64,000 bases of DNA from Actinomyces provencensis (GTDB taxonomy: Bacteria; Actinomycetota; Actinomycetes; Actinomycetales; Actinomycetaceae): NCBI RefSeq assembly GCF_900155435.1, contig NZ_LT700212.1:398944-462943 (forward strand). Reading direction: 5' to 3'. Made by a program: the position numbers and the translations under genes. The notes below the pieces were generated by a model, which did not search any database, had not been told where the DNA came from, and was given only the letters and a program-made list of their open reading frames with translations. Shown one piece after another: positions 12,182 through 37,651 of this stretch. How positions within the stretch are numbered: the stretch's first letter is position 1; every line of letters begins with the position of its first letter.

Positions 12182-12235
12182 CGCGCGCCTTCCGATCGAG
12201 AAGCGATCCGAGCGGCGCGGCGGAGCCTTCGAAGG

Positions 12236-17355: not shown

Positions 17356-17368
17356 CGATGGAATGTTA
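17356..17368 (-). promoter_or_regulatory. leaderless promoter -10 of GT2/licD/flippase unit
   Basis: Minus strand TAACAT (17368-17363), seven bases, ATG 17355. The same hexamer and spacing occur before the DUF2142 gene at 31427. Confidence 0.6.
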
Positions 17369-17443
17369 CTCGCACCGCTTCTGAGGAAGTCGACCTCCCG
17401 CTCCGATGTGATGGCAAACTCCTCTGCAGAAACGGGAGGACAC

Positions 17444-19487
<2,044 letters not shown>

Positions 19488-19548
19488 TCAGTCCGTGCAA
19501 GTCCTTCCGATCGCACCCCAATCTCCCCGCACATCACTGGAGCAACAC

Positions 19549-22332: not shown

Positions 22333-22479
22333 GCCCGGGCCCCAGTCCCCGATGCGTTAGCATGGCGTGCAGCCACCCACAATGAAGACGAGGAACTGAA
22401 CCTCGACGTGCGGACCCTCGCCAGCCCCGCACGACATCGAACAGCCACCGCGTCACCGCAACGAGAGGTAAGTGGTTTC

Positions 22480-23319
22480 ATGACCGGACCCGCCAACAGC
22501 GGTGTCCGCCCTGTCAGGGCTTTCTGGCAGGAGTGGAATTTGATCAATGCCTTCGGGCAGCGAGACCTCAAAGCCAAGTTCAACGGCACGGCGTTGGGAT
22601 GGTTGTGGTCCTTGGTCGTCCCTTTGGCCACGCTGGGAATCTACACACTCATCTTCGGTGGTCTTTTCTCGATGGCGCCTCCCGGCATCGCCTCCCGGCA
22701 CCAAGGCATCGGGATTTTCGCCGTCTGGCTGTTCGCTGGACTCACCGTCTGGGGTTTCTTCCAGAACTCGATCAACGCCGGCATCAACGGCCTGTTGAGT
22801 TCAGGCGGGATTCTCCAGAAGGTCTACTTCCCCGCGTATGCACCAATACTCGGCGCCAGCCTCGCCGTGGGTGTTCAGTCCTTGATCGAGGTCGGCCTCC
22901 TCCTGATGGTCATGGCTCTCCTCACAAACATCTCGTGGACCTGGCTGCTCCTCCCCTTCTTCCTCTTGCTGCTGACCGTGTTCACGGGTGCGATGTCCGT
23001 GATGCTCGCCGTCTGGAATGTCTACGTACGCGATCTCGCCCACCTGATCGGGGTGTTCCTCCAGCTGATGTTCTACGCGACCCCAATCATCTACCAGGCG
23101 AACTTGGTCCCAGAGCAGCTCTTCGGGCTACCGGCGCGAGCACTCATCGAGGCGATGCCGATGGCAGAGTTCATCACTCTCTTCCGTTCACTGGTCTATG
23201 ACCTGACTCCCGGAACACCCCAGGTGTGGGGTGCCTCTGTCGCTTGGACCGTCGTCGCCTTGCTCGGTGCGGTATGGGTCTTCCGCAGGTGGGGTTCCGA
23301 TCTGGGAGAGAGGATCTGA
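22480..23319 (+). CDS. wzm: polysaccharide ABC exporter permease
   Basis: 279 aa, six hydrophobic helices. It begins with the amphipathic entry helix of ABC-2 polysaccharide permeases (NLINAFGQRDLKAKFNGTALGWLW), and has GGILQKVYFPAYAPIL, VYVRDLAHLIGVFLQLMFYATPIIY and the end pattern WVFRRWGSDLGERI, as in Wzm/TagG/RgpC. It works with the ATPase encoded six bases downstream to export an undecaprenyl-linked polymer. The start is uncertain: ATG 22480 has a GAGAGG about eleven bases upstream, and an in-frame GTG at 22408 would add 24 residues. Confidence 0.9.
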   Translation: MTGPANSGVRPVRAFWQEWNLINAFGQRDLKAKFNGTALGWLWSLVVPLATLGIYTLIFGGLFSMAPPGIASRHQGIGIFAVWLFAGLTVWGFFQNSINAGINGLLSSGGILQKVYFPAYAPILGASLAVGVQSLIEVGLLLMVMALLTNISWTWLLLPFFLLLLTVFTGAMSVMLAVWNVYVRDLAHLIGVFLQLMFYATPIIYQANLVPEQLFGLPARALIEAMPMAEFITLFRSLVYDLTPGTPQVWGASVAWTVVALLGAVWVFRRWGSDLGERI

Positions 23320-23324
23320 TCGGC

Positions 23325-24599
23325 GTGCGAGACAGCGAGGACTCCACGGAGTTCGCCATCCGAGTCAGAGACGTCTCCAAGTCGTTCACGGTCCACAACG
23401 ACCAGCGGAGCACGCTGAAGGAGCGGTTTGTCCGGGGCCGCTCCCGTCACAAGAACACCTTCCGCGCTCTGGACCACGTCTCATTCGACGTGCGCAAGGG
23501 CACGACCTTCGGGCTGATCGGCCACAACGGCTCCGGCAAGTCCACGATGCTCAAGATCCTGGCGGGGGTCTACCGCCCCACCTCCGGGGAGGTGAGCGTC
23601 TCCGGGAAGGTGGATGCGCTCCTCGAGCTAGGAGCCGGATTCCACGGCGAGCTGACCGGTCGCGAGAACATCTACCTAAATGGAGCGATCCTCGGTCGCA
23701 GCCACAAGGAGATCGAAGAGTCTCTCGACTGGATCATCGACTATGCCGACATCGGCAACTTCATCGACGAACCGGTCAAGGTCTACTCCTCGGGCATGAC
23801 GGTTCGTCTCGGGTTCGCCGTCGCGGTGGCGATCCACCCCAAGATTCTCATCGTCGACGAGATCATCGCCGTGGGAGACGAGGAGTTCCAACGCAAGTGC
23901 TTCGACCTGATGCGAGACCTCCGAAGGTCGGGCACTACGATCGTCCTGGTCACCCACTCCCTGAGTCTGGCCCAGGACATGTGTGATGAGGTCGTCTGGC
24001 TCGATCACGGGCGTGTCCGCAGCGTCGGGGATGCTGACGAGGTCGTCTCCGCCTACCTCGCCCATGTCAATGCGCTCGAGCGTTCGAAACGTTCAGCCGA
24101 GCTCGGTTCTGCCGACCTTCCTGAGGAAGGCGACTCTTCCGAGAACCGGGGGACCGGGGAGTGCCGCATGACACAGGTCGAGTATCTCGATGAGCAGAGA
24201 CGCGCGGTTCCCTTCCTCACCAGCGGGCAGGACGGAACGATCAGGGTCCACATTCTTGCCCGACGACCTCTTGAGAACGTGGAGCTCGGACTGGCATTCA
24301 CGACCGATGACGGGACCACCGTCGCGGGGCCGAACTCCCGCCACGCGGATCGTCTGTACTCTCTCCCGATGGGGAGCAGCTACGTCGACTACACGATGCG
24401 CCCGGTGCGCCTCCTCCCAGCCCATTTCCTCCTCACGACTGCTCTCCTCGATTCCCAGGGGAGAACCTTCGATTACTCGGACAGGAGGACTGACCTCCTG
24501 GTTCGCGGGGACAAGGTGGTCGACGAGCCCGGTCTGGTGCAACTCCCTCTCGGCGAGTGGAGTGACTCACCCACGCCCATCCAGATGGAACAGGAGTGA
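23325..24599 (+). CDS. wzt: polysaccharide ABC exporter ATPase with Wzt-type C-terminal domain
   Basis: 424 aa. ABC domain (residues 1-250): Walker A GHNGSGKST, signature YSSGMTVRLGFAVAV, Walker B ILIVDEIIAVGD and the H-loop VTHS; the LLELGAGFHGELTGREN segment marks the polysaccharide/teichoic-acid exporter group. Residues about 290-410 form a beta-rich Wzt_C domain (VRLLPAHFLLTTALLDSQG). In O-antigen systems that domain binds a terminal modification on the finished chain and couples chain ending to export, so the glycan may carry a cap. GTG 23325 lies six bases after the permease stop. The next gene overlaps by four bases. Confidence 0.92.
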   Translation: MRDSEDSTEFAIRVRDVSKSFTVHNDQRSTLKERFVRGRSRHKNTFRALDHVSFDVRKGTTFGLIGHNGSGKSTMLKILAGVYRPTSGEVSVSGKVDALLELGAGFHGELTGRENIYLNGAILGRSHKEIEESLDWIIDYADIGNFIDEPVKVYSSGMTVRLGFAVAVAIHPKILIVDEIIAVGDEEFQRKCFDLMRDLRRSGTTIVLVTHSLSLAQDMCDEVVWLDHGRVRSVGDADEVVSAYLAHVNALERSKRSAELGSADLPEEGDSSENRGTGECRMTQVEYLDEQRRAVPFLTSGQDGTIRVHILARRPLENVELGLAFTTDDGTTVAGPNSRHADRLYSLPMGSSYVDYTMRPVRLLPAHFLLTTALLDSQGRTFDYSDRRTDLLVRGDKVVDEPGLVQLPLGEWSDSPTPIQMEQE

Positions 24600-24826
24600 T
24601 CAAGTTGAGCGACCCTGAAGAAGAAGTCCTTCGTCTGCGCGCTGCCCTGCGCCAGTCCCAACGTGAGCTCTCCGTCCTTGGGCATCGTGTGACGGAGCTC
24701 GAGGACGAACTTGAGAGGAAGTCCGCCGTCCTGGAAGGGGCATGGGCACAGCTGGATGTACTCAGGCACTCGACCTCATGGCGCATCACGGCCCCCATCA
24801 GGCTCATCAAGGCTCCCATTCGATGA
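24596..24826 (+). CDS. small coiled-coil protein with SWRITAP motif
   Basis: 76 aa, not recognised as a named family. Residues about 5-55 give a heptad-like, charged helix (EEEVLRLRAALRQSQREL, RVTELEDELERK), and the end reads STSWRITAPIRLIKAPIR. The SWRIT-x-P-hydrophobic ending resembles the segment at the end of coiled-coil spacers in surface-glycan glycosyltransferases. The gene is held by GTGA overlap with wzt (24596-24599) and ATGA overlap with the next gene (24823-24826), which is strong evidence for translation. It may be a scaffold for the Wzt/RgpF machinery (inference). Confidence 0.75.
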   Translation: MIKLSDPEEEVLRLRAALRQSQRELSVLGHRVTELEDELERKSAVLEGAWAQLDVLRHSTSWRITAPIRLIKAPIR

Positions 24827-25647
24827 CTCGTCGACCGAAGCGCGGTCCACTGGTGGCTGATGCGAGCCGGGGTCGCGTGCGTCTCGAGCGCGGTGTTGTT
24901 CCGCAGGACACCCCCACGAAGGTCGCGCTCATCGCGCAGTACTCCGCCGGTCCCACACAGCCTCGTTCCATCTCCGAGTACACCCGCCAGCTGGCTGACA
25001 ACGAGTTCACACCCGTGATTGTCTCCGCCTGTGAGAGCAGTGAGCACCTCCGCTTCCCCCACGGTTTGCCCGAGTCCACCATCATCATCCGCCGTCCGAA
25101 TGTCGGGTACGACTTCGGTTCATGGGCTACCGCCCTGGGCATGATCCCCCAGATCCGACGCAGTGAGGTGGTCCTTCTGACCAATGACTCACTCGTCGGG
25201 CCCTTCTCCGACATCCGTCCGATCCTCGACTGGGCCACGCATCCCGGTCCCAACATCAGGGCCCTGACCTCTTCCTTCCAGTTCGTCAGACACATGCAGA
25301 GTTACTTCTTGGCCTTCCGGGGCGGAATCTTGGACGATGACGCCTGGAGGCACTTCTTCAACTCGGTGCGTGTGCAGCCCGACAAGTCCTCGGTGGTGCT
25401 GAAGTACGAGCTCGGCCTCTCGCGATTCGCCTTCCAGGAGGCCTACTCCGTGCAGGAGTACATCAGTGGGCCCGACATCGGTGTTCCGGATGACAATCCG
25501 ACGATCGCCGGCTGGAAGGAGTTGGTCGAGGCTGGCGTGCCATTCGTCAAGCGAACGATGCTCACGGATCCGTCGACGGCAGAGGCCGCACCGGAGGTGC
25601 GCTCCTTCATCAAGACCACGTACCACACAGATGTTGAGGAATGGTAG
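24823..25647 (+). CDS. rhamnan synthesis protein F (RgpF)-like
   Basis: 274 aa. The central region, VALIAQYSAGPTQPRSISEY followed by RRPNVGYDFGSWATALG and VVLLTNDSLVGPFSDIRPIL, is typical of the RgpF family, which acts in rhamnose-glucose polysaccharide assembly in streptococci. It also has SYFLAFRGG and, near the end, a GVPFVKRTMLTDP segment. RgpF proteins are thought to be glycosyltransferase-like. ATG 24823 overlaps the previous stop (ATGA). The next gene, also RgpF-like at its N-terminus, follows after eight bases. Confidence 0.82.
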   Translation: MTRRPKRGPLVADASRGRVRLERGVVPQDTPTKVALIAQYSAGPTQPRSISEYTRQLADNEFTPVIVSACESSEHLRFPHGLPESTIIIRRPNVGYDFGSWATALGMIPQIRRSEVVLLTNDSLVGPFSDIRPILDWATHPGPNIRALTSSFQFVRHMQSYFLAFRGGILDDDAWRHFFNSVRVQPDKSSVVLKYELGLSRFAFQEAYSVQEYISGPDIGVPDDNPTIAGWKELVEAGVPFVKRTMLTDPSTAEAAPEVRSFIKTTYHTDVEEW

Positions 25648-25655
25648 GAAGAGCA

Positions 25656-27710
25656 ATGCGTCAGTTCACCAAGGCAGGTGCGGTTCGCCGCCTCAACCAC
25701 CTGGGGTTCCGTGCCCGTCAGGCCGGGGTAAACCTGCTGACCACGGGCTCGCTCCATGGCGCCCGCGCCCAGCACCCGGCGGACTTCCTGAACTTCGTCG
25801 AGCGGCAGGGCGGGAGGCAGGGCTCCGGATTCCCCGACCGGTGGAGGATCGATCCGCGTCTCCACTTCGATGACCCGGCGCGCGTCGGGGTCGTGCTGAA
25901 CTGCTTCTATCCTGACCTCCTCGACGAGATCCTCGAGCATCTCAAGCTGATCCCGGTCCCCTTCGATCTCTTCGTCACCAACGTGTCCGGGACCCCAATC
26001 GACCTCCCCGCCGAACTTGGGCAGATGCACCACGGCGTCGTCCTCGATTGCGAGAACCATGGTCGGGACATCCTTCCGATGATCCACCTGGTCAATGCGG
26101 GCCTCCTGAACCCCTACGACCTCATCCTCAAGGTTCACACCAAGAAGAGTCCTTGGCGTGAAGAGCACGCCGAGCTGTCAGGGACTGGCGCTCAGTGGCG
26201 CTCTGAACTGCTGGGGGCGCTCCTGCCCTCGCCGGAGGCCATTGCGGACATCCTGACGTCGTTTGCAAATGACGCGCATCTCGGTGTCGTCACAGCTCCG
26301 GGCAATGTCGCTGGTCCGCAGTTCTGGGGCGGTGACCGCAGGATCGTGAATGAACTGTTGCGCAGACTGGAGCTCGACGTCGAGACTTCAGCATTGGAGT
26401 TCCCTGCGGGATCGATGTACTGGTGCAGGGGGTTCGTCCTCCAAGGCCTGCGCGCACTGAACCTCCTCTCCGAGGACTTCGACGAGGAGGCAGGACAGAT
26501 CGACGGGACCACTGCACATGCGGTCGAGCGCATCATCGGAATACTCACCCGCGAAGCTGGCCTGAACATCGAGACCAGCGATCGCATCGAGGTCGGGCTG
26601 TCGTCACGGGCCCCTTTCTCCTTGCAGCGCTACGACGTCGGGGGGGAGCGAACTGCCCGCGCAACGGTTCTCCCCTTTTATCTCCCACAATTCCACCCCT
26701 CTGCTCACAATGACGTGTGGTGGGGGACTGGTTTCACCGAGTGGACAAACGTCGCAGCGGCAGTTCCCATGTACCGCGGTCACTACCAACCCAAGATTCC
26801 CACCGAGTTGGGTTTCTATGACCTGCGCCTGGATGATGTGCGTGAACGCCAGATGGATCTGGCGCGCGCGCACGGTATTGCCGGGTTCATGTACTACTAC
26901 TATTGGTTCTCGGGAGAACGCGTCCTGAGTCTCCCTGTTGAGAAGCTCCACAAGTCTGAGATGGATGCGCCGTTCTGCTTGATGTGGGCCAACGAGAACT
27001 GGACGCGCCGCTGGGACGGGCGTTCGGAGGACGTCCTCATTGGCCAGGACTACGACAAGGTGCCGGCCGAGGACTTCATCGACGACGTCATGGAATTCCT
27101 CCTCGACCCCCGGTACATCCGGATCGGTGGTCGCGCGGTCCTCGCCGTCTACCGTCCGGGACAGATGCACGATTTCGCCGCTGTCTCCCGGGAGTGGCGC
27201 AAGCGTGCACGTGCCGCGGGTGTGGGAGAGCTCATCCTTCTCTCGGTGTCAGTGTCACAGGACTTCGATGCCATCGATCCCTCTGCCGCCACTGCAGTCG
27301 ACGGTACCTTGGAGTTCCCCCCACACAACCTCCCCTGGATCACCGGACCGGTGAAGAAGGCCGGTTTCGACCGCCGTTGGCGGGGAAACTTCATGAGCTA
27401 CGAAGCGACTGTGCGTGCCTCTGTGACCAAAGCTCGCGAGATGGACGACAAGACCTATCCGGGTGTCATGGTCAACTTCGACAACACCGCTCGGCGCCAG
27501 TGGAAACCCGATGTTTGGTACGGCGCGAACCCGTACACCTTCCGCCGATGGATCGGGTCCCAAGTCGATTCTCTGATGGTCCGTCCCCCTGAGTCCAGGT
27601 TGCTGTTCGTCAACGCCTGGAACGAGTGGGCGGAAGGCGCAGTCCTGGAGCCGACCACTCGATTCGGTCGGACCTACCTCCAAGCCATCCGGGATGCAGT
27701 TGTCTCCTGA
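25656..27710 (+). CDS. RgpF-like / WbsX (GTWX) fusion protein
   Basis: 684 aa, two domains. Residues about 65-310 are RgpF-like: VGVVLNCFYPDLLDEILEHL, the HGRDILPMIHLV motif and LILKVHTKKSPWR. Residues about 325-680 form a WbsX/GTWX domain: VLPFYLPQFHPSAHNDVWWG, GFTEWTNVAAA, YYYYWFSGERVL, WANENWTRRWDG and FVNAWNEWAEGAVLEP, the full hallmark series of that group. WbsX domains occur in O-antigen and surface-glycan loci and probably act on the polymer; the exact reaction is not established. ATG 25656 is preferred because AGGAAG lies four bases upstream. Last gene of the wzm-wzt operon; a bidirectional hairpin follows. Confidence 0.88.
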   Translation: MRQFTKAGAVRRLNHLGFRARQAGVNLLTTGSLHGARAQHPADFLNFVERQGGRQGSGFPDRWRIDPRLHFDDPARVGVVLNCFYPDLLDEILEHLKLIPVPFDLFVTNVSGTPIDLPAELGQMHHGVVLDCENHGRDILPMIHLVNAGLLNPYDLILKVHTKKSPWREEHAELSGTGAQWRSELLGALLPSPEAIADILTSFANDAHLGVVTAPGNVAGPQFWGGDRRIVNELLRRLELDVETSALEFPAGSMYWCRGFVLQGLRALNLLSEDFDEEAGQIDGTTAHAVERIIGILTREAGLNIETSDRIEVGLSSRAPFSLQRYDVGGERTARATVLPFYLPQFHPSAHNDVWWGTGFTEWTNVAAAVPMYRGHYQPKIPTELGFYDLRLDDVRERQMDLARAHGIAGFMYYYYWFSGERVLSLPVEKLHKSEMDAPFCLMWANENWTRRWDGRSEDVLIGQDYDKVPAEDFIDDVMEFLLDPRYIRIGGRAVLAVYRPGQMHDFAAVSREWRKRARAAGVGELILLSVSVSQDFDAIDPSAATAVDGTLEFPPHNLPWITGPVKKAGFDRRWRGNFMSYEATVRASVTKAREMDDKTYPGVMVNFDNTARRQWKPDVWYGANPYTFRRWIGSQVDSLMVRPPESRLLFVNAWNEWAEGAVLEPTTRFGRTYLQAIRDAVVS

Positions 27711-27763: not shown

Positions 27764-28693
27764 TCACTGGTGGGGAATCGGGCCACTGCGCCCGCGCAGC
27801 CCATCCCGGAAGCCCCGGAGGATCATCCGCGTCCGACGCCAACGTTGATTTGCCAGGAGCGCGTTGAACGCCACGTACTTGATCAACCAGACGACATAGC
27901 CGATCGACCATTTGGGTCCCAGAACTCCCGACCCGATCAGGAGGATCGTGTTGCGTACCAAGTAGTAGTTGCGAACCGGCTGATGGACATGGACTGGCTG
28001 TCTCCTGCCCATCACGTGCGCCGTCTCATCGCCGAGGCTGTGTCGCATACGTGCCTCGGGCACGACCAGCAACACGAATCCTTGCCTCCGCGCCCGCAGG
28101 CCCCATTCGAGGTCCACATGGTCGATGAAGAGCCGCTCATCCATGGAACCGATGGAGTCCAGGGCTTCGATGTCGATCAGGCAGCCCGAGGCGATCAGGA
28201 AGGCGACAGGCAACGGTCCGTGTCCCAGCTCGGCACTGGTGGCGCGTCTGGGACCCCAAGTACGCGACACGTAGACGAGTTGATCGCCTCCAGGCTTCTC
28301 CTCCCCCACCAAAGGACCCACCGCTGCCAGAGGCTCTCTCCCCTTCCAGGTGGCAAGGACATCCTCCAGTTGTCTCACCATCAGTTCAGAAGGCCGGGAG
28401 TCGTCATCCGAAAGAAGGACCCGGCGCGCACCCAACTCCCGCGCCCTTTCGATTCCGGCATTCTGGGCGGCCGCGATTCCGGTGTTGTGGCGGAGCTCAA
28501 TGAGAAGGGCACCCAAGTCCCTGCACCAGTTCCTCAGGAGCGCGGTCTCTTGCGGCGTCGATCCGTTGTCCACCACGATGACATGTCCGCACTGCTGTGC
28601 CAGCGTCATGAGCAAGTCCCTGCAGGCGGCTGCCGGATGGTAGGTGACGACGACTGCCGCCACGTGGGGGACCTGCTGTGCATGAACGTTCAT
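27764..28693 (-). CDS. GT2 glycosyltransferase, rhamnosyltransferase-like (WbbL/RfbN type)
   Basis: 309 aa. It contains VAAVVVTYHPAAACRDLL, VIVVDNGST, LRHNTGIAAAQNAGIERA, LLSDDDSRPSELMV and FIDHVDLEWGLRARRQGF, the layout of the rhamnosyltransferase group related to RfbN, followed by C-terminal membrane-associated helices (SIGYVVWLIKYVAFNALLANQR). Starts at 28693, 28708 and 28717 are in frame; 28693 is chosen because the family motif begins soon after. It lies two bases from the upstream GT4 stop, so it is in the same operon. Confidence 0.86.
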   Translation of the reverse strand: MNVHAQQVPHVAAVVVTYHPAAACRDLLMTLAQQCGHVIVVDNGSTPQETALLRNWCRDLGALLIELRHNTGIAAAQNAGIERARELGARRVLLSDDDSRPSELMVRQLEDVLATWKGREPLAAVGPLVGEEKPGGDQLVYVSRTWGPRRATSAELGHGPLPVAFLIASGCLIDIEALDSIGSMDERLFIDHVDLEWGLRARRQGFVLLVVPEARMRHSLGDETAHVMGRRQPVHVHQPVRNYYLVRNTILLIGSGVLGPKWSIGYVVWLIKYVAFNALLANQRWRRTRMILRGFRDGLRGRSGPIPHQ

Positions 28694-28694
28694 G

Positions 28695-29816
28695 TCATGC
28701 CATCCCATTGGTCCCACAGTTGTTGATCGTCTCCTGGATGATCGTCTCGTACTCCTTGACCCGTTCGGGCCACGTCCACTGCTGGATCAAAGCTTCGGGC
28801 GCGAGCGGGAGTGGAGCACGGAGACTCGCCTGCAGGAGCGACTGAAGTTCACTTTCCTTGCGCTCAGACGTCACCGACACAGGCTGCCCCTGCTTGCGCA
28901 GCAGATCGGCACCTGGCACGGGATAGGTGACGACGCGCCCCCGTTCGGCCAATGCCTCCAGCAAAGTCGTCTGGAAACCCTCCGACAGCACCGTGGGGTT
29001 GAGCAGGGTGGCCCCGGCCAGCGCTTCACGTACCTTGGGAGGACTGACCCTGCCGCGGACCTGGACCACGCCCGTCAACCCGAGTTCGGACACGCGCTCA
29101 CGAACCCGGGAGATGTCTGCACCCGTTCCGAGGATCTCGGCGTCGACCCGGGAATCCGCTTGGTGCAAACGCGCCACCGCGTCCAGGAAGGTCTCCCATC
29201 CCTTGCCAGGGACCAGCCGTCCTACGAAGACCAAGTGCTGCGGCCGGTCACGGACCGGCCCGGCGTGAGTGGCGGGAGTGATCGCATTGTGGAACACCGA
29301 CGCGGGGACATGCCCCAGACGGGAGGCAAAGGCGGCAGCCTCGTCCGAGACTGCCAGCACCGTGTCCGCATGGCTCAGCACGTAGCGCCCGAGTGTCAGG
29401 TCGACGAAGCGACTGCCCAGCGAGATCACGGGGGAGGGCGAGGCCACAAAACCGCTTCCGTGCTCCGTGTGGACAACAGGGACGCCGACGGAGTGCGCCG
29501 CCTGAAGACCGACGAAGCTCATCGGGAAGAACCGCGTGTGGGTCGACACCACGTCCACGTGTTCATCACTGAGGAAGCGAGCGATGCGTCGGCGGCTCCC
29601 CAGCCTCGGGAAACTGATCACACCCGCAATGGGGAAGTTGGACCTGCCGGTGAGAACTCGGACCTTCCCATCGCTGCGAACACCTGTGTGCTCGGAGATG
29701 GTGAGCACCAGGACCTCGTGCCCGTCCTGCGCAAGCCCGTGCGCGAGGTTCTCCAAGTGCTGTTCAAGTCCTCCCAGACGGGGAGGATAGCTGTTGACGA
29801 CAAAAGCGATTTTCAT
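28695..29816 (-). CDS. GT4 family glycosyltransferase
   Basis: 373 aa, GT-B fold. The N-terminal lobe begins MKIAFVVNSYPPRLGGLEQHL. The C-terminal lobe has LVFVGRLVPGKGWETFLDAV and the E-x7-E motif in VLSEGFQTTLLEALAERG, which binds the nucleotide sugar. Specificity unknown. An AGGAAGG ribosome binding site precedes ATG 29816. It and the following GT2 form a pair downstream of the DUF2142 gene. Confidence 0.9.
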   Translation of the reverse strand: MKIAFVVNSYPPRLGGLEQHLENLAHGLAQDGHEVLVLTISEHTGVRSDGKVRVLTGRSNFPIAGVISFPRLGSRRRIARFLSDEHVDVVSTHTRFFPMSFVGLQAAHSVGVPVVHTEHGSGFVASPSPVISLGSRFVDLTLGRYVLSHADTVLAVSDEAAAFASRLGHVPASVFHNAITPATHAGPVRDRPQHLVFVGRLVPGKGWETFLDAVARLHQADSRVDAEILGTGADISRVRERVSELGLTGVVQVRGRVSPPKVREALAGATLLNPTVLSEGFQTTLLEALAERGRVVTYPVPGADLLRKQGQPVSVTSERKESELQSLLQASLRAPLPLAPEALIQQWTWPERVKEYETIIQETINNCGTNGMA

Positions 29817-29909: not shown

Positions 29910-31427
29910 TCACCTGTCGACAAGGCTCCGACCGTGACTGATGTCCTCCTCCTGCCGGGTCGCCACGAACAACAGCAGTGCCAGTCCCACTGCCATTGCA
30001 AACGCACCGGTGATCCACACGACCGAAGGCCCGACGGACCAGGGCCACCACTGCGGGTCCTCCAACCCCTCAACGGAGAACGAGCTATCCAGTCCGACCG
30101 TGTAGCGCAGCAGGATGCGGCGCAATGCTGATCCATTCGCCACCGCGACGACCACGACCAGCAGTGCCATCTGCCCGGGTGTGCGCATCGGGGCCCAGCG
30201 ACCGCGCTGGAGCCAGAAGAAGAAGAGAACGGCGAGGAGGGGCAGCATATACCGGCCCTGGTAGTAGATGACGGGCTGCACGTGCCGCAATGTGAGGCTC
30301 ACAACGGGGACCCCCACAAGGGCGCCCAGGATCACACCACTGGCGAGGAACTTCCGCAGGTCCACGTGTGCGGCGCCGGCCATGACGAGTCCGCCCGCAA
30401 GGAAGACCATCGTGAGGGTCGACCACCCGCGCAACGGGACATCGAACCAGCCGGGACCCCAGGTCAGCCCCCACATACTGGCGATGAACTCCGGCACCTG
30501 TTGCAAGTTCTTGGAGAGGATGAATCGCACGGATCCCTCGGTGACGGGCCAACCGCCGTCGCCCTTGAGGTTGCCTGCCTGACCGCTGTTCACCATGATC
30601 AGAAGTCCGACGGCGGCGGCGCATAGGGAGATGACCAGTGCGGGGATCCTGGCGCGCGTGAACCTAGTGAAGAACCATACTGCCAGTGTGATCACCGCCA
30701 GGAAGAACGCGGAGTCTGCCCGGCTCGTGGCGGCAAGCACGGCCCCGTACGCCGACAACGCGAGGAGCCCCCACCGCCGGGGGCCTTCTGCTTCGAGTGC
30801 CGAGAGCATCCCCGTTGCGTAGATGAGGCATCCGCTGATCGCCCACGAACTCGGGTTGTTGGATGCGATGAAGTAGACGCCCATCGGAACCCATGCAACC
30901 ATCGCCGCCATGATGACCTTGTCCTTCATCCCTCGTGGGGCCACGAGCGCGACTCCGATGAGTCCCCCAATCCCAAGGACGATGTTGACCAATCTCATGG
31001 TGACGACCGACCGGTGCACGTCGGGACCAACGAAGAGGTGGTGCAACTGGTAGTAGCCCCACGGATAGGCACCTGCATCGAATCGCTCCGTGAAGCCGGA
31101 ACGGTCATCCGACCGTGACAAGGCGCAGGATGCATTCTGCTCGGGCTTGAAGGCGAAACAGTCCTGCGCGTTCAGGATGGAATCAGGCACCTTGACCGCG
31201 GTGATCGTCCCGTTCGTCTCCCGGAACTCACATCCTGAGTCCTCGATCGGTCGGGGGCACCAGATGCTCCCCAAGTGGTAGTCATCGTCGGGGGAACCCG
31301 CGACGGGCGAGGAGACCGCCCAAGATGCGAAGCCGATGAGTACCGCCACGGCTCCGAGGACCGTCAGAAGGATCGTCCCGGAGCGACCGAGTCGGCGCGT
31401 CTCGAGCCGCCCCTTGTGAGAAATCAT
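29910..31427 (-). CDS. DUF2142 family polytopic membrane protein
   Basis: 505 aa with about eleven hydrophobic helices. After the first helix a periplasm-side region has the DUF2142 pattern SSPVAGSPDDDYHLGSIWC with paired cysteines, then GAYPWGYYQLHHLFVG. The family resembles GT-C glycosyltransferases and occurs in surface-polysaccharide loci; as no Wzy polymerase is seen, a polymerase-like or lipid-sugar transferase role is possible but unproven. ATG 31427 is set by a TAACAT box seven bases upstream; an upstream in-frame ATG at 31436 overlaps that box. Followed by the GT4/GT2 pair. Confidence 0.82.
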   Translation of the reverse strand: MISHKGRLETRRLGRSGTILLTVLGAVAVLIGFASWAVSSPVAGSPDDDYHLGSIWCPRPIEDSGCEFRETNGTITAVKVPDSILNAQDCFAFKPEQNASCALSRSDDRSGFTERFDAGAYPWGYYQLHHLFVGPDVHRSVVTMRLVNIVLGIGGLIGVALVAPRGMKDKVIMAAMVAWVPMGVYFIASNNPSSWAISGCLIYATGMLSALEAEGPRRWGLLALSAYGAVLAATSRADSAFFLAVITLAVWFFTRFTRARIPALVISLCAAAVGLLIMVNSGQAGNLKGDGGWPVTEGSVRFILSKNLQQVPEFIASMWGLTWGPGWFDVPLRGWSTLTMVFLAGGLVMAGAAHVDLRKFLASGVILGALVGVPVVSLTLRHVQPVIYYQGRYMLPLLAVLFFFWLQRGRWAPMRTPGQMALLVVVVAVANGSALRRILLRYTVGLDSSFSVEGLEDPQWWPWSVGPSVVWITGAFAMAVGLALLLFVATRQEEDISHGRSLVDR

Positions 31428-31440
31428 GACCTTCATGTTA
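31428..31440 (-). promoter_or_regulatory. leaderless promoter -10 of DUF2142 unit
   Basis: Minus strand TAACAT (31440-31435), seven bases, ATG 31427. Confidence 0.6.
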
Positions 31441-31517
31441 GCCGACCCGCATGCCACTCCGACGCCGTCAGCACGCCGCCAAGGGCGGTCTGAAGTGCAG
31501 GATGCGGGGGTTCGACA

Positions 31518-32420
31518 TCAGGAGGCAGATCTGGAGCCGAAGTCGCCCAGATCAACACGAACAGGTTCATGGGTCTTGCGCTTGTCAACCGGCGGGAGTT
31601 CCATGTAGTCACCGTAGCCACGGGTCAACACCGCGTCGTACTCACGGGGAATCTTCACGGTGATGTCCTCGAACGGTACCTCGAGAGGGGGAAAGAGGTC
31701 GTCAGGCGTCACGGCCCAAGCCATCGGGTCTCGATCGGTGTAATCGGTCATCCGAGAACCATGGGAACCCTCAAAACGGCGCGCAGCGCGTTCCCACCTA
31801 CCTTGGATCATCTCGGGGCGAACCCTGAGAAGAGCTAGGGCTAAGTGGACGAGTTGGGTCGCGGCGAGCACTGCATGCTTCTTGGCTCCGTCGATCTCAA
31901 GGTAGGGACGCCCCGTTCCCTGGAGATACAACAGGCGTCCCCAGAACCATGTGGCGCGGACCTGCCGTCGATACTGTCGCGGGTCCTGTGGCATCGTGTC
32001 GAGAGGGAAGATGTCAAGCGCGATCGGCATCCTGAATGGGTTGTCCCTCATAGGGACCGAGATGAACAACGTTCCCGGAAGGGCGAGCTTTGAGAACATG
32101 TTCGGATAGCCAGATGTGTTCCTGGAATTGATCACCGAAATGCCGTCCGACAGTATTGCAGGTGCCTCTGCGAGGAATCGCTCGTAGTCCGCCCTTGGCA
32201 TGCACACGTCTGCATCGTCGTCCCATGGGATGAACCCGTGATGACGCACGGCTCCGATCGCGGTGCCCCCATAAGCGACGTAGGCGAGGTCGAGTTCGTT
32301 ACACACCCTGTCGAACTCGGCCAGAAGGTGAGTGAGCGCCCGCTGAACCTGCCGAAGAGTGTCCGTGTCGCCGCTTCCACTCGTGCCCACTTCATCCTCT
32401 TTCCGTTGCGCCCAGTACAT
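31518..32420 (-). CDS. licD: LicD-family phosphotransferase (second copy)
   Basis: 300 aa. LicD core: LAYVAYGGTAIGAVRHHGFI, PWDDDADVCMPRADYERFL, then IALDIFPLDTMPQD, and near the end REYDAVLTRGYGDYMELPP, matching the other copy at 15,653. It is encoded just downstream of the DMT transporter and in the same direction as licCA, so this copy is the best candidate for phosphocholine transfer; two LicD enzymes with different acceptor sites are common in lic loci. No good ribosome binding site is seen before ATG 32420; GTG at the VGTSGSG segment is an alternative start. Confidence 0.9.
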   Translation of the reverse strand: MYWAQRKEDEVGTSGSGDTDTLRQVQRALTHLLAEFDRVCNELDLAYVAYGGTAIGAVRHHGFIPWDDDADVCMPRADYERFLAEAPAILSDGISVINSRNTSGYPNMFSKLALPGTLFISVPMRDNPFRMPIALDIFPLDTMPQDPRQYRRQVRATWFWGRLLYLQGTGRPYLEIDGAKKHAVLAATQLVHLALALLRVRPEMIQGRWERAARRFEGSHGSRMTDYTDRDPMAWAVTPDDLFPPLEVPFEDITVKIPREYDAVLTRGYGDYMELPPVDKRKTHEPVRVDLGDFGSRSAS

Positions 32421-32468
32421 CTCAAATCGCCGCCCGCACCTTGCCGCTCCTGCAGACCACCGACCCGT

Positions 32469-33431
32469 TCACGCAGGTATGGAGTCCTGGTCGGCCGCTC
32501 GGGCCCGTCCACCCCAGAACCGGAGTTCCTTCCAGTCGGCTGACGCGGAGAGGACAGTCCCACAGATGATCGCGACGCAGCAGACGACCTGGAGGACACC
32601 CGGAATCTCTCCCAGGAACACGATCCCGAACACGACAGCCCAAGCAGAGTACGAGATGTTGACCGCCATTCCCCGTGCGGCACCGATCTGGTCGATCGCC
32701 TTGTAGTAGAAGAGGTAGGACAGGGTGCCTGCTACTGCAGCCAGGGCGATGACCGCCGTGGGAGCCGTGAAAGTGAAGTCCCACGCCGTTCCCAGGGCAC
32801 CCGCCACGGGAACGACGAGGAGGCCATAGACCAACGCCGAAGTCGTCTCACGGATCTGAAGGGCGGTTTCATTGTCGACTGCGTCATCCCGCATTCCCCA
32901 TGCGAGCAGTACGGCCTCGGATCCCCACCCGACCATGCAGACGACGGCGGCAACAACACCGACCAGCGCATTTCCACCGTCAGCAACCCCGGTGGAACTC
33001 CACCCCATGACCATGATCGCAACGAGTGCAACGGCGAGCGCGATCACTTGACGCATTCGCATCCGTTCCTTGAGGAAGACCACCGCAAGCACGGTGCCCA
33101 CCGCAGGGTAGAAGGAGGAGAGAATCGCCGTGTATCCGGGACCAATGTTGTCGATGGCCACGAGGTAGCCCGTCATGCCGATGGGACCACCGAGGAGAGC
33201 ACCGACCATCACCACCTTGCCGCTGCGCGTGCGCAGTGCGGTGGCGGTGTCACGAAGCCGTCCCCGTGCCGCCATGTAGACGAACAGGATGATCATGCAG
33301 GCTGCATCGTGGAGCAAAGCCCCAACCAGCGCGGAGTCGGGGGAATCCGCGAAGAGGCCCATACCCAGCGCGATGCCGAGCACCACCGTGTCGAGGCCCC
33401 ACAGGAGACCACTCAGAACTCCGAACTTCAT
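32469..33431 (-). CDS. DMT/EamA-family transporter, LicB-like candidate choline importer
   Basis: 320 aa with ten hydrophobic helices in two EamA halves: GVLSGLLWGLDTVVLGIALG at the start, GYTAILSSFYPAVGTVLAVVFLKERM closing the first half, and ARGMAVNISYSAWAVVFGIVFLGE closing the second. LicB, the choline transporter of lic operons, belongs to this superfamily. The gene lies between a small coupled ORF and licD, and licCA is upstream on the same strand, which makes choline uptake the most economical reading. Substrate cannot be proven from sequence. The start overlaps the previous stop (ATGA, 33428-33431). Confidence 0.85.
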   Translation of the reverse strand: MKFGVLSGLLWGLDTVVLGIALGMGLFADSPDSALVGALLHDAACMIILFVYMAARGRLRDTATALRTRSGKVVMVGALLGGPIGMTGYLVAIDNIGPGYTAILSSFYPAVGTVLAVVFLKERMRMRQVIALAVALVAIMVMGWSSTGVADGGNALVGVVAAVVCMVGWGSEAVLLAWGMRDDAVDNETALQIRETTSALVYGLLVVPVAGALGTAWDFTFTAPTAVIALAAVAGTLSYLFYYKAIDQIGAARGMAVNISYSAWAVVFGIVFLGEIPGVLQVVCCVAIICGTVLSASADWKELRFWGGRARAADQDSIPA

Positions 33432-33661
33432 CGGACCAACTCCTCGGTAGTGTCTGCGTCGACCCCTGTCGGGACGTGACTCTCTACGACTCCATACGCC
33501 TGCTCATGGAACTGTACAGCGATGGTCTGGGCGTAGCGGCGCAGACGCGCAACCACATGTTGGGCCGCACTCCACGGGCCCGACAAGGCGCGACCACAGA
33601 GCGGACAGGAACGTGCCCCCGACGCCACGACGGCTCGGGGCGCCCGGGGGCATCGGACCAT
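33428..33661 (-). CDS. small protein with CPLCG zinc-knuckle, unknown function
   Basis: 77 aa, not recognised. The N-terminal part has RSCPLCGRAL, half of a zinc-ribbon, with another cysteine near residue 4; the rest is a possible helix (AAQHVVARLRRYAQTIAVQFHEQ). Its reality rests on context: the stop overlaps the transporter start by four bases (ATGA), the start lies 18 bp after the DUF2304 stop, and a G-rich ribosome binding site precedes ATG 33661. With only three cysteines it may bind zinc as a dimer or not at all. Confidence 0.55.
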   Translation of the reverse strand: MVRCPRAPRAVVASGARSCPLCGRALSGPWSAAQHVVARLRRYAQTIAVQFHEQAYGVVESHVPTGVDADTTEELVR

Positions 33662-33679
33662 TCCCCAGCGCTGCCCCCT

Positions 33680-34066
33680 TCAGTCCCCGGTCCCCGCATT
33701 GTCGTCGGGATCCTCGGCCCGGAGGCGTCCCTGGAGCTCCTCGACATCGGCCCGCAGGATCGCCACCTCCTCCGCGAGACGTCGCCGATTCTCGGCCGCG
33801 TGGGACAGGTCGACACTGAACTGCAGTGACATCAGGAGGATGACAACCCCTGCCAGGAAGAATGCCAGGTTCAAGGGCACGACGATCCCGATAAGATCCG
33901 ACAGCCACTTGAGCACACCGGGGAAGGCACTGATGAGAATGAGGAAGAAAGCGATCACGAGCCACCACGTGGCGTACCTCTCCTGCATCCTCGAGTTGCG
34001 CAGGCGAAGGAATATCACAACGAGGACCAACAGGGAGAAGACCAGTCCGAGACTGTAGGCGTTCAT
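33680..34066 (-). CDS. DUF2304 family membrane protein (first copy)
   Basis: 128 aa with three hydrophobic helices followed by a charged, coiled-coil-like tail (AAENRRRLAEEVAILRADVEELQ). The MQERYATWWLVIAFFLIL segment is characteristic of DUF2304. The family is encoded beside dolichyl-phosphate-mannose-synthase-like GT2 enzymes and probably forms a membrane partner for them. The start overlaps the stop of that GT2 (ATGA, 34063-34066). A second GT2-DUF2304 pair is at 54,051-55,188. Confidence 0.85.
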   Translation of the reverse strand: MNAYSLGLVFSLLVLVVIFLRLRNSRMQERYATWWLVIAFFLILISAFPGVLKWLSDLIGIVVPLNLAFFLAGVVILLMSLQFSVDLSHAAENRRRLAEEVAILRADVEELQGRLRAEDPDDNAGTGD

Positions 34067-34863
34067 GCGACCACCTCACGAGCGTTCGCGGGAGCGGGCC
34101 TCGGACGACTGAGGGACACCGCCAAAGCCAGGAACGCGCGCAGGAGAAAGAACCCAGAGGACAGTGGGTTGTGCGAGGGGGTGCCCCCGGCCCGGGGTCG
34201 CATGACGACTCCCACCTGTGCGACCTTGAGGTCGGCCCGGGCTGCGATGACGAGCGCCTCGACGGTGTCACCCAGATACTCCGCAGGGTAGTCTCGGGCG
34301 AACAGGGCGACAGCGCGGGGGCCACTCAGCTTGAATCCCGACGTCGTGTCGGTGAGCTTCGTGTGACACACCCGCGACAGCGTGTGGGACAACAACGACA
34401 TCGCCCACCGTCGGGGCCCCCGGACCCTGTAATCGCCCTTCCCCGCGAAACGGGCACCTATGACGACATCGGCACCGTTCTTGCGTTGGGTCTCAAGCAG
34501 TGAGGGGATTTCTCCGGGATCGTGCTGGCCGTCGGCATCCAACTGGACCGCAAACCGGTATCCGTGTCGGAGCGCGTAGAGGTAACCGGCCCGCATCGCG
34601 CCACCGACCCCCAAGTTGATCGGTAGGTCGAGGACCCTGACCCCTGCGCGCCGGGCGATGTCCGCCGTGGCATCCGTCGAACCGTCCGAGACCACGAGGA
34701 CGTCAGCATTCGGCGGCCTTCGCTCGAGCACATCGACAAGGACGCCCCCCAGCACCTCGGCCTCGTTCCAGGCGGGGATGATGATCAGGAGGCGTGGGGA
34801 CCCACACGCCGGATACCCGCGCCCCGCTCGGGACCCGCGGGTGGTCTCCGCACCCCCGCTCAT
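34063..34863 (-). CDS. DPM1-like GT2 polyprenyl-phosphate glycosyltransferase (first copy)
   Basis: 266 aa. It reads [50 protein letters not shown] and [15 protein letters not shown], the DPM1/DPMS-like GT2 pattern, with [16 protein letters not shown] later. Such enzymes make polyprenyl-phosphate monosaccharides used as donors outside the membrane. A short disordered N-terminus precedes the domain. It overlaps rmlA and DUF2304 by four bases each, so rmlA-GT2-DUF2304 are coupled. Confidence 0.88.
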
Positions 34864-35729
34864 TTCTCCCCGTCGAGGAGATCCAGCAGGTAACGTCCGT
34901 AGCCCGACTTCAACAATGGCGTGGCCCGCTCGCGCAGTCCGTCATCGTCGATGAACCCCATCCTCCACGCAACTTCTTCCGGGCACCCGATCTTCATGGC
35001 CTGACGCGACTCGACCGTGCGGACGAAGCTCGTGGCATCGGCCAGCGAGTCGAAGGTCCCTGTGTCCAGCCACGCCGTTCCACGGGGCAAGACCTCGACG
35101 TTCAACAGACCCGCCCTGAGATAGACGCGATTGACATCCGTGATCTCGTACTCCCCGCGCGCCGACGGCTTGAGATCCTTGGCGATCGCCACGACGTCAT
35201 TGTCATAGAAGTAGAGGCCTGGGACCGCATAGTTCGACTTCGGCTTGGTCGGCTTCTCCTCGATGGAGAGCGCGCGGAAGTCCTCGTCGAACTCCACGAC
35301 CCCGTACTCGCGGGGGTTGGACACGTGATAGGCGAAGACCGCGCCGCCTTCCGGGTCCACGTGTCGGCGCAGCTTGGTACCCATGCCGTGCCCATAGAAG
35401 ATGTTGTCGCCCAGGACCAGCCCCACCGAGTCGCCACCGATGTGATCGGCACCCAGCACGAACGCCTGCGCCAACCCGTTGGGTACGTGCTGGACGGCGT
35501 AAGAGATGTTGACACCCAGCTGGGAACCGTCGCCGAGCAGCCGGTGGAAGGACGGAGCGTCCTGCGGTGTGGTGATGACCAGGACATCGCGAATTCCCGC
35601 CAGCATGAGGGTGGTCAGCGGGTAGTAGATCATCGGCTTGTCGTAGACCGGCACCAACTGCTTGGAGGTGCCCAGCGTGATCGGGTTCAGACGACTCCCG
35701 GATCCACCCGCCAGAATGATCCCCTTCAT
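34860..35729 (-). CDS. rmlA: glucose-1-phosphate thymidylyltransferase
   Basis: 289 aa, full length for the family. Nucleotide-binding [20 protein letters not shown] at the N-terminus, [48 protein letters not shown] and [13 protein letters not shown], all diagnostic of RmlA. It makes dTDP-glucose, the first step to dTDP-rhamnose, feeding RmlB. ATG 35729 has GGAGGG nine bases upstream; GTG 35735 is an alternative. The promoter has GGCATAATGG and a 12-bp palindrome (CGACGATCGTCG, 35764-35775) between it and the gene. It heads a transcript running through GT2, DUF2304, the small ORF, the transporter and licD. Confidence 0.95.
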
Positions 35730-35763
35730 TGCCACACACCCTCCGAGCGACCAACCACGCCGA

Positions 35764-35775
35764 CGACGATCGTCG
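35764..35775. promoter_or_regulatory. 12-bp palindrome in rmlA leader
   Basis: CGACGATCGTCG is a perfect palindrome placed between the presumed rmlA -10 and its ribosome binding site. It could be an operator or a small hairpin; no regulator is identified. Confidence 0.3.
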
Positions 35776-35783
35776 GCCTCCCA

Positions 35784-35793
35784 CCATTATGCC
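35784..35793 (-). promoter_or_regulatory. -10 region of rmlA promoter
   Basis: Minus-strand GGCATAATGG with CATAAT as the likely -10, 55 bases before ATG 35729; identical ten bases precede rmlB. Confidence 0.45.
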
Positions 35794-35854
35794 AAGCGTT
35801 CGCGCGCAGGGGCGCCGGCCCGGCCGCCACCCCCACGGTGGACGAAGGCGTCCT

Positions 35855-37651
35855 TCACGCGCTCCGAAGCTCCACGGAACGTTGAGCCGTGTCATCCCCC
35901 GAATCGGACGTGGCCCGGTACCAAGCGAGGACCCTGTCGACGTTCGAGGCAGCGTACCGGTGATAGATCTCCCTCCACTCACCGATGTCATCGCCCTCGG
36001 CCTCCTTGGCCAGTGCCCACACATACCAGCACCACCCCGCCAGAGCGACATAGGCCCAGAAATGCCGAACGTCCGCGGAACACGGTGTGCGTCCCAAGTA
36101 GTGCCCCAGCGCCTCCTCAGCTGTGTCGTCCCCCAGTTGTGCGCACACGGTGAACGTGGCCAGGTCACTGGTGATGTCAGACATCCCTGCGTACTCCCAG
36201 TCGATGAGTGTCAGCCCCCCGTCCTCGTCCACGAGGATGTTCAAGGGGAAGAAGTCATTGTGGTTGAGGCAGACCGGGAAGGCATCCGCCACCGCGTATT
36301 CCTTGATGGTGCGGACCTTCTCCCTCAACTCCGTGTAGCCGGGAACAGCCTCCAAGTCACCCGGCCCCATCAGTGCCTCGTACTTCTGCCCCTCGACGTA
36401 GAAGTCGAAGGAACGTTCAAGGACGGCCCCGCTCTCGTGGAGGCGCCGTGCCAGCTCCATGGCCCCTTGGAGTTCCGAGGGATCCGACGGGTCGACGCTG
36501 TGGGCATTGGGGATGAAGTGCGAGAGCTTCCATCCGGTCTTCTCGTCCTCGTGGATGAACGTGTGGTCAAGGCCCAACTCGCGAGCCAGGAGCAGGGCCT
36601 TGGTCTCATTTGCCCGGTCGATCATCTTGTCCGTTCCCAGGCCGGGATGACGGTACACGTACTCGTGATCGCCGACGGAGAAGTGGAAGGAAAGGTTCGT
36701 CAACCCCTCGGACAGGGCCGAGAAGTCATGGACCTCTCGACGCGCACATCCGAGGACACCGACGATGTTGTCGATGATCGTCGAGGGGACGGTGTCGAGG
36801 AAGGCGGGATCGAAGGCCTCCACCTCATCCACGGAGTCGAACTCGTGGATGACACCGGAGGGGAAGCGACGCACCGACATCCTCAACTCTGGGAGATGCT
36901 CCGCAAAGATCGCCTCCCACAGCTTCCCGGCCGTCTCGGGTCGGAAGTACTCCTGCTCCAGGATGCTTCTGAAGTGCTCGGAGAATGCCTCGTCGAAGAA
37001 AACGTGCCCGAGCATGATCCATGAGTCGGATCCCCCGACCCTCACCCCCTCGATCATGTCGTCCGACGAGATGGTGAGACACCATTCGTCGGTGGGCCCC
37101 TCGACGTACTGCGAGGCATAGTAGGCGCCTCGCACGAAGGTCGTGAAGGGATTGTCCGTGAAGTAGTTGTCCGACGAACAGATGTAGGTGTTGCCGAGTA
37201 GCTCACGCACGTGCCACAACGTCGAGTTGTTGTTCCGGACCTTGTAGTCGGGGTTCTCGACGATCCGAACCCCGAACTCGTCAGCCAAGTAACGGAACCT
37301 GTCTGCCAGGTATCCAACCACCACCGTGATGTCCATGATCCCGGCCTCGCGCAGCTGGCGGATCTGGCGCTCAATCTGGACCTCGCCCCTGACGGGGAGC
37401 AGGCCCTTGGGAAGCTCGTAGGAGAACGGGACGAACCGGGAGGACACTCCTGCAGCCATGATCACCGCGTTGTGCACCCGATGAGGTTCCAGGAGCTTCC
37501 AGCCCTCCGGGGTGGGCACGTCGTCCGCCAGAAGGCCCATCGTCTCCAGGTCTGCCATCGCCCGGTCCACATCCGCCGACAGGCATGGCGCACCCCCGTG
37601 GGGGCCAGTCGTTGACGCGAGGACCTCAAACTGAGTTGCGGTGAGAACCAT
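35855..37651 (-). CDS. fused phosphocholine cytidylyltransferase-choline kinase with N-terminal HTH (LicC-LicA)
   Basis: 598 aa, three parts. Residues 1-58 look like a winged helix (LTATQFEVLA, DVDRAMADLETMGLLA, PTPEGWKLLEP). Residues about 60-290 are a LicC-type nucleotidyltransferase: NAVIMAAGVSSRFVPFSYEL, PKGLLPVRGE, then ICSSDNYF. Residues about 305-580 are a choline/ethanolamine-kinase fold: VCLNHNDFFPLNILVDE with the catalytic HxD and Asn, and LTLIDWEYAGMSDITSDLA with the metal Asp. The protein should phosphorylate choline and activate it to CDP-choline for LicD. Separate licA and licC genes are the rule in Haemophilus and pneumococcus; fusions are known in other bacteria. A GGAGGGG site precedes ATG 37651. 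Confidence 0.92.
   Translation of the reverse strand: MVLTATQFEVLASTTGPHGGAPCLSADVDRAMADLETMGLLADDVPTPEGWKLLEPHRVHNAVIMAAGVSSRFVPFSYELPKGLLPVRGEVQIERQIRQLREAGIMDITVVVGYLADRFRYLADEFGVRIVENPDYKVRNNNSTLWHVRELLGNTYICSSDNYFTDNPFTTFVRGAYYASQYVEGPTDEWCLTISSDDMIEGVRVGGSDSWIMLGHVFFDEAFSEHFRSILEQEYFRPETAGKLWEAIFAEHLPELRMSVRRFPSGVIHEFDSVDEVEAFDPAFLDTVPSTIIDNIVGVLGCARREVHDFSALSEGLTNLSFHFSVGDHEYVYRHPGLGTDKMIDRANETKALLLARELGLDHTFIHEDEKTGWKLSHFIPNAHSVDPSDPSELQGAMELARRLHESGAVLERSFDFYVEGQKYEALMGPGDLEAVPGYTELREKVRTIKEYAVADAFPVCLNHNDFFPLNILVDEDGGLTLIDWEYAGMSDITSDLATFTVCAQLGDDTAEEALGHYLGRTPCSADVRHFWAYVALAGWCWYVWALAKEAEGDDIGEWREIYHRYAASNVDRVLAWYRATSDSGDDTAQRSVELRSA

Follow-up and report, generated by a model that had tools for sequence, protein, structure and literature searches.

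We analyzed a 64,000-nucleotide stretch of the Actinomyces provencensis genome (contig NZ_LT700212.1, positions 398,944 to 462,943; hereafter the window), which carries a set of genes resembling the Lic-1 pathway for phosphocholine decoration. A fused LicC-LicA-like protein (LicCA), a transporter and two LicD proteins had previously been proposed from the DNA letters and their open reading frames (ORFs), and all four ORFs are present on the minus strand with exactly the boundaries given by this sequence-only reading. Together with the two genes that accompany the second LicD, they are:

35855-37651, minus strand: fused LicC-LicA protein with an N-terminal stretch (residues ~1-57), a cytidylyltransferase (~58-287) and a choline kinase (~288-576)
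32469-33431, minus strand: LicB, predicted choline importer (match to solved LicB; co-occurrence)
31518-32420, minus strand: LicD1, probable phosphocholine transferase accompanying LicB and LicCA (PF04991, 1.3e-34; LicD tree)
15653-16459, minus strand: LicD2, whose donor is less certain than that of LicD1 (PF04991, 5.1e-42; separate clade)
14383-15660, minus strand: probable polysaccharide flippase adjoining LicD2 (family matches to Polysacc_synt)
16486-17565, minus strand: GT2 glycosyltransferase of the LicD2-flippase cassette (start uncertain; a relative lies near LicD2 in A. urogenitalis and Olsenella)

The lic genes share one strand, as had been read, yet they do not form an uninterrupted module: licCA and licB are 2,423 bp apart, with rmlA, a GT2 gene and a DUF2304 gene in between.

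The fused protein is 598 amino acids long and matches the Pfam models APH (1.8e-14), Choline_kinase (1.8e-9) and NTP_transf_3 (2e-11). In a PDB sequence search, residues 59-278 align to the solved pneumococcal LicC (E 6.1e-36) and residues 305-561 to the solved pneumococcal LicA (E 1.2e-23). A structure model of the protein (predicted local distance difference test score, pLDDT, 89.8) superimposes on LicC with a Z score of 32.5 (1.9 A over 228 residues) and on LicA with a Z score of 28.8 (2.6 A over 279 residues), so that the proposed LicC-LicA fusion is borne out by both sequence and predicted fold. PntC (Z 25.3) and a Plasmodium ethanolamine kinase (Z 24.5) rank lower among the model matches. 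The transporter matches EamA (1.5e-19, Pfam). It had been placed in the drug/metabolite transporter superfamily that contains LicB, an assignment that can be sharpened to LicB itself, as the solved LicB (7b0k/7paf) is its sole PDB sequence match at E<=1 (5e-34). Residues Trp-17, Trp-167 and Glu-170 of the solved LicB chain are kept in the window LicB. A carrier of the BCCT family was sought as well, and none was found.

The lic genes are linked and co-occur in relatives, in which LicB, LicCA and LicD1 travel together. We searched 396 genomes of the phylum, 396 of the order and 98 near relatives, the window's own genome being counted. The fused protein is matched in 30 genomes of the phylum sample at E<=1e-20, 18 of them (own genome included) over both halves and 12 over the kinase half only; in 27 genomes of the order sample at E<=1e-30, three of these matches being partial; and in 25 of the near relatives. 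LicB is present in 20 of the 98 near relatives, all of them among the 25 LicCA carriers and none among the 73 genomes that lack LicCA (Fisher 1.6e-16, uncorrected for kinship). Leaving the window aside, the 19 LicB relatives all have their LicB match 8-56 bp downstream of that to LicCA, and the nearest relative (L073) has the uninterrupted order GT, ugd, licCA, licB, licD1. Given the E-values and this co-occurrence, chance similarity of the lic genes can be excluded. An alignment was made of 15 relatives picked from the phylum, order and near-relative loci. A further, named scan gave at least 573 confirmed stretches, of which the best 80 loci were kept; these include Actinomyces, Schaalia, Atopobium, Olsenella, Collinsella, Slackia, Gardnerella, some Streptococcus and many Clostridia. 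Some of these loci, several of the 80, are short contigs, in which the absence of a gene carries little weight. Two side observations concern these sequences. Contig 121 of genome G153 carries two fused LicCA matches in tandem (80947-85339), the second of which lies within an open frame 1159 codons long. L073 (JAKECL010000001.1) is a metagenome-assembled genome titled Propionibacterium sp., and its locus is identical to that of a genome placed in the same genus as the window; this title is probably a misnomer.

We mapped residue roles, taken from excerpts of PMC4364537 and PMC6697681, onto the fused protein via alignments to pneumococcal LicC and LicA, and compared 17 fused proteins. The alignment holds the window protein and those of 16 of the 80 loci, with L077 left out for a stop codon and L106, L124 and L127 also omitted; the N terminus is lacking in four of its 17 rows (L081, L097, L111, L113). 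In the kinase half, the equivalents of LicA Thr-29, Asp-176, Asn-181, Asp-194 and Glu-196 are kept in all 17 family members compared. The choline box is likewise retained, with Trp-251 and Trp-254 invariant and Tyr-197 either Tyr or Phe in 17/17, and the position of Tyr-268 is a Trp in the window protein and in 12 of the 17. The cytidylyltransferase half keeps LicC Asp-107, Glu-216 and Asp-218, which we take to be catalytic, and Trp-191 in all 17 proteins, with Trp or Tyr throughout at the position of Trp-136; the roles of these residues are assumed here, and the alignment shows their conservation.

The two LicD proteins, both of which had been recognized from the sequence, are the only ones in the 3.35-Mb genome and lie above the Pfam cut-off. 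Against the PDB they give weak matches to Fukutin-related protein (0.07 and 3.8e-5) and one chance-level match to a lipoprotein. In a tree of 43 sequences (41 LicD ORFs of more than 180 residues and the two from the window), LicD1 is a member of a supported 12-row clade (98/91); its 11 companions there, from 7 loci, all belong to LicB loci. LicD2 groups apart from LicD1, in a clade (99/99) whose seven other rows are from A. urogenitalis and Coriobacteriia. Calling its neighbor a flippase is reasonable, as four of eight family members match Polysacc_synt (best 5.3e-8), the window protein itself being without a Pfam match. This candidate has no PDB match at E<=1 by sequence or profile, in a PDB copy not checked for TacF, and could be tied neither to TacF nor to the flippase of Streptococcus M334 by either approach. 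A GT2 gene and a flippase are also found near the LicD2 relatives in the A. urogenitalis and Olsenella loci. In pneumococcus, licD1, licD2 and tacF form one unit, according to excerpts of PMC4364537.

Taken together, the family identities, the predicted fold, the conserved catalytic residues and the joint occurrence in relatives are best explained by a Lic-1 pathway with phosphocholine decoration, to which we assign a probability of roughly 0.8. Here, choline would enter through LicB and be phosphorylated with ATP by the kinase half of the fused protein; the cytidylyltransferase half, on the same chain, would convert phosphocholine and CTP to cytidine diphosphate (CDP)-choline. CDP-choline would then serve LicD1, and perhaps LicD2, as the donor of phosphocholine for sugars of a surface glycan. 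This glycan would be lipid-linked and built by the neighboring glycosyltransferases, and its export would fall to the flippase, a Wzm/Wzt transporter or both. That the substrate is choline, and not a close relative, is our inference, as are the transferase roles of LicD1 and LicD2, the glycan that acts as acceptor and its display at the surface. The module had been called complete, which holds; LicA, LicB and LicC match solved choline enzymes specifically, beyond the superfamily level, and LicD is matched at the family level.

Several observations weigh against this pathway or parts of it. LicC Tyr-190, presumably a pocket residue, is replaced by Leu-244. LicC Asp-105 and Asp-192, placed near the choline end in excerpts of PMC6697681, correspond to Ser-159 and Glu-246, and all three changes are invariant in the 17 fused proteins. 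LicA Glu-213, which contacts the quaternary amine according to excerpts of PMC4364537, is Cys-503 in the window protein (among the 17 proteins compared, 16 have Cys here and the remaining one Ser). LicA Val-178 has become Phe-468, and on the nucleotide side Gln-31, Asn-32, Lys-45 and Glu-89 are replaced by Leu-320, Ser-321, Arg-334 and His-378. Five of the 25 LicCA carriers lack LicB at E<=1e-30, and LicB is nearby in only one of the seven clade mates of LicD2. In addition, the window's own genome encodes a TagD-like cytidylyltransferase ORF (555097-555465, L156; 67.6 bits, under the 165.4-bit cut-off), which adjoins an ORF that resembles a CDP-alcohol transferase by eye; another CDP-alcohol is thus possible. 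The altered pocket residues make choline the likely, not the proven, substrate of the fused protein.

A Lic-like pathway could instead act on another amino-alcohol (ethanolamine, mono- or dimethyl-ethanolamine, or similar), and the glycan would then bear that phosphodiester. The changed LicC pocket and the lost LicA glutamate would fit such a substrate, as would the alignment of the kinase half with the ethanolamine kinase structure. Yet the aromatic cage of the kinase is kept, with one aromatic gained (Tyr-487, Trp-542, Trp-545, Trp-559, Phe-468), the fused protein is mostly accompanied by LicB in relatives (20/25), and choline enzymes are the best matches in both fold and sequence, so we regard this alternative as improbable. 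It is harder still to believe that the LicC half works in the manner of PntC, with the phosphonate 2-aminoethylphosphonate being activated. PntC shares the fold, Glu occupies both the Asp-105- and the Asp-192-equivalent places in the Treponema denticola enzyme, and Glu-246 resembles its Glu-196; the LicC half is fused to a choline kinase, however. A search for phosphoenolpyruvate (PEP) mutase returned nothing over the cut-off in the genome, the one weak match (28.3 of 31.5 bits) being without the EDK motif, and the phosphonate reading was rejected. The EDK motif is absent from the window and occurs in only three of the loci examined.

It is quite conceivable, at somewhat less than even odds, that phosphocholine is transferred by LicD1 only and that LicD2 adds glycerol-, ribitol- or another phosphate, which would be compatible with phosphocholine decoration and limit it. 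The separate clade of LicD2, in which LicB is seldom nearby, points in this direction, and so does the TagD-like ORF. Among the genomes of its clade mates, Olsenella L076 and L079 have LicB elsewhere, and Slackia L114 has none at E<=1e-5. Four of the seven loci (L076, L077, L079 and L114) contain a stand-alone LicC paralogue (28-29% identical to the LicC half), so that another donor for LicD2 is possible, and a precedent exists in LicD3 of Streptococcus oralis, reported in excerpts of PMC4649388 to add ribitol phosphate. The genome of the window, however, has no second LicC at E<=1e-30 (seven of seven candidates scored) and none besides the fused protein itself at E<=1e-20 (three of six candidates scored), a weak second LicC being possible. 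In A. urogenitalis (L075), moreover, the licD2-GT2-flippase cassette adjoins licCA-licB-licD1, which favors phosphocholine for LicD2 as well. CDP-ribitol as the donor was rejected, as a search of the genome found no TarI-type paralogue: three PF01128 matches in two ORFs are IspD-/GlmU-like by eye, and TarJ was not searched.

Many of the fused proteins carry a further domain in front of LicC. A Pfam winged-helix model is matched by 9 of the 17 at E<=0.05 (HTH_24, best 9e-10); the protein of Streptococcus M334, an N-terminally cut row of the alignment, matches a winged helix when given its own start (8.5e-9), and 9/17 is thus a lower bound. In L113 the winged helix ahead of LicC-LicA was located by Pfam (9824-10200), in the other rows by eye. 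The window protein has no winged-helix or helix-turn-helix match at E<=0.05 in Pfam. We also found an NCS1-type permease (PF02133 for the query) within ~320 bp of LicCA in 12 of the 80 loci, downstream in eight and upstream in four (L113, at 11791-13218, and L106, L108, L111, L112, L115, L117, L120, L124, L131, L136, L144). LicB is found in 28 of the 80 loci and never together with the NCS1 permease (Fisher 0.006, uncorrected for kinship); the 28 loci were found with the pneumococcal query and 32 with that of the window, the four extra ones at 26-27% identity, and the NCS1 set overlaps neither. Nine of the 12 NCS1-permease genomes have no LicB at E<=1e-5, several of them being metagenome-assembled and perhaps incomplete, and in the other three (S. 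oralis DD15, Streptococcus M334, Parvimonas) LicB lies outside the locus.

These findings allow for a tentative and rather doubtful model, in which LicCA would be a widespread winged-helix-LicC-LicA protein, a layout that we liken to a NadR-like plan, and might sense choline and control its own operon. The importers would be exchangeable, with the NCS1 permease an undescribed importer of choline or an amino-alcohol. Such choline-sensing control would likely have been lost in the window protein, since no helix-turn-helix scores there. A literature search of partial coverage returned no description of a fused or helix-turn-helix-bearing LicC-LicA, nor of an NCS1 permease in a lic locus.

We compared the window with known systems. 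The lic1/lic2 regions of Streptococcus pneumoniae likewise comprise a choline importer, a kinase, a cytidylyltransferase and two LicDs, one of them beside a flippase. In the window, by contrast, LicC and LicA form one chain, three sugar genes separate LicB from LicCA, the two LicDs belong to different clades and lie 15 kb apart, and an ATP-binding cassette (ABC) glycan exporter is encoded in the same region. Also comparable are the lic loci of A. urogenitalis, A. succiniciruminis, A. glycerinitolerans and S. vaccimaxillae (L075, L126, L081, L082), with LicCA 54-59%, LicB 61-63% and LicD1 46-53% identical; here LicCA, LicB and LicD are contiguous, unlike in the window, and L126 also has Wzt, RgpF and WbsX, as in the window. 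T. denticola PntC has the same cytidylyltransferase fold and a Glu at one shared pocket position, and differs in that the window genome lacks a PEP mutase over the cut-off and has a choline kinase as partner domain. For Actinomyces viscosus and A. gerencseriae, of the same bacterial family as the window but of another genus, excerpts of PMC10434233 report Lic-1 enzymes in silico and tabulate TEPC-15 surface reactivity, and excerpts of PMC6697681 mention that Atopobium rimae and Olsenella uli have lic genes. The window thus holds a well-supported new member of a known pathway, a find largely expected because relatives are already reported to carry Lic-1 or phosphocholine, and the layout of the fused enzyme is its most interesting part.

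If this assignment is correct, surface phosphocholine may be common in Schaalia/Actinomyces and in many Coriobacteriia, and streptococci or Haemophilus would not be the only possible sources of TEPC-15-type signals in oral or gut samples. Phosphocholine is shared with host lipids and recognized by host C-reactive protein; binding of this protein and of the platelet-activating factor receptor, to which the sequence-only reading had drawn attention, is a general property of phosphocholine. The fused, often winged-helix-bearing enzyme and the exchange of LicB for an NCS1 permease would raise testable questions about choline sensing and uptake in commensals.

The remaining genes of the glycan region are:

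34860-35735, minus strand: RmlA, glucose-1-phosphate thymidylyltransferase, between licCA and licB (TIGR01207)
34063-34863, minus strand: GT2, polyprenyl-phosphate sugar synthase-like (below NCBIfam cut-offs)
33680-34066, minus strand: DUF2304 protein adjoining this GT2
29910-31457, minus strand: DUF2142 membrane protein, downstream of licD1 (start uncertain)
28695-29816, minus strand: GT4-type glycosyltransferase
27764-28717, minus strand: GT2 glycosyltransferase
22408-23319, plus strand: Wzm-type ABC permease for glycan export (ABC2_membrane)
23226-24599, plus strand: Wzt-type ATPase with a Wzt_C domain (start uncertain)
24742-25647, plus strand: RgpF-like protein
25641-27710, plus strand: RgpF-WbsX glycosyltransferase
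18402-19457, minus strand: RmlB-like nucleotide-sugar dehydratase (GDP_Man_Dehyd, 2e-71)

The earlier proposal of a rhamnose-type glycan is plausible: RmlA scores 478.5 bits against a cut-off of 360.65 for NCBIfam TIGR01207, the window also carries RmlB-like and RgpF/WbsX-type genes, and RmlC is encoded elsewhere in the genome. It is plausible from these gene assignments that the region encodes a rhamnose-containing glycan.

The G+C content of the 12-38 kb segment is 59-65%, compared with mostly 68-75% in the flanks, and the 4.7-kb fused-gene loci within the same genus have 54-67%. Among these same-genus loci, DNA identical to Schaalia vaccimaxillae and Actinomyces bouchesdurhonensis was observed. 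In a plasmid DNA search of 541 records, all of the 20 matches listed cover the rmlA stretch only. A scan for sigma-70-like promoters gave no sites, with 1.1 expected by chance, and is uninformative in this DNA. The glycan region also contains a gene for a secreted-looking amidase (Amidase_2, 1.8e-13; 19090-22332, plus strand), which harbors two perfect 333-bp tandem copies at 20985-21647, pointing to a duplication or gene conversion in the recent past.

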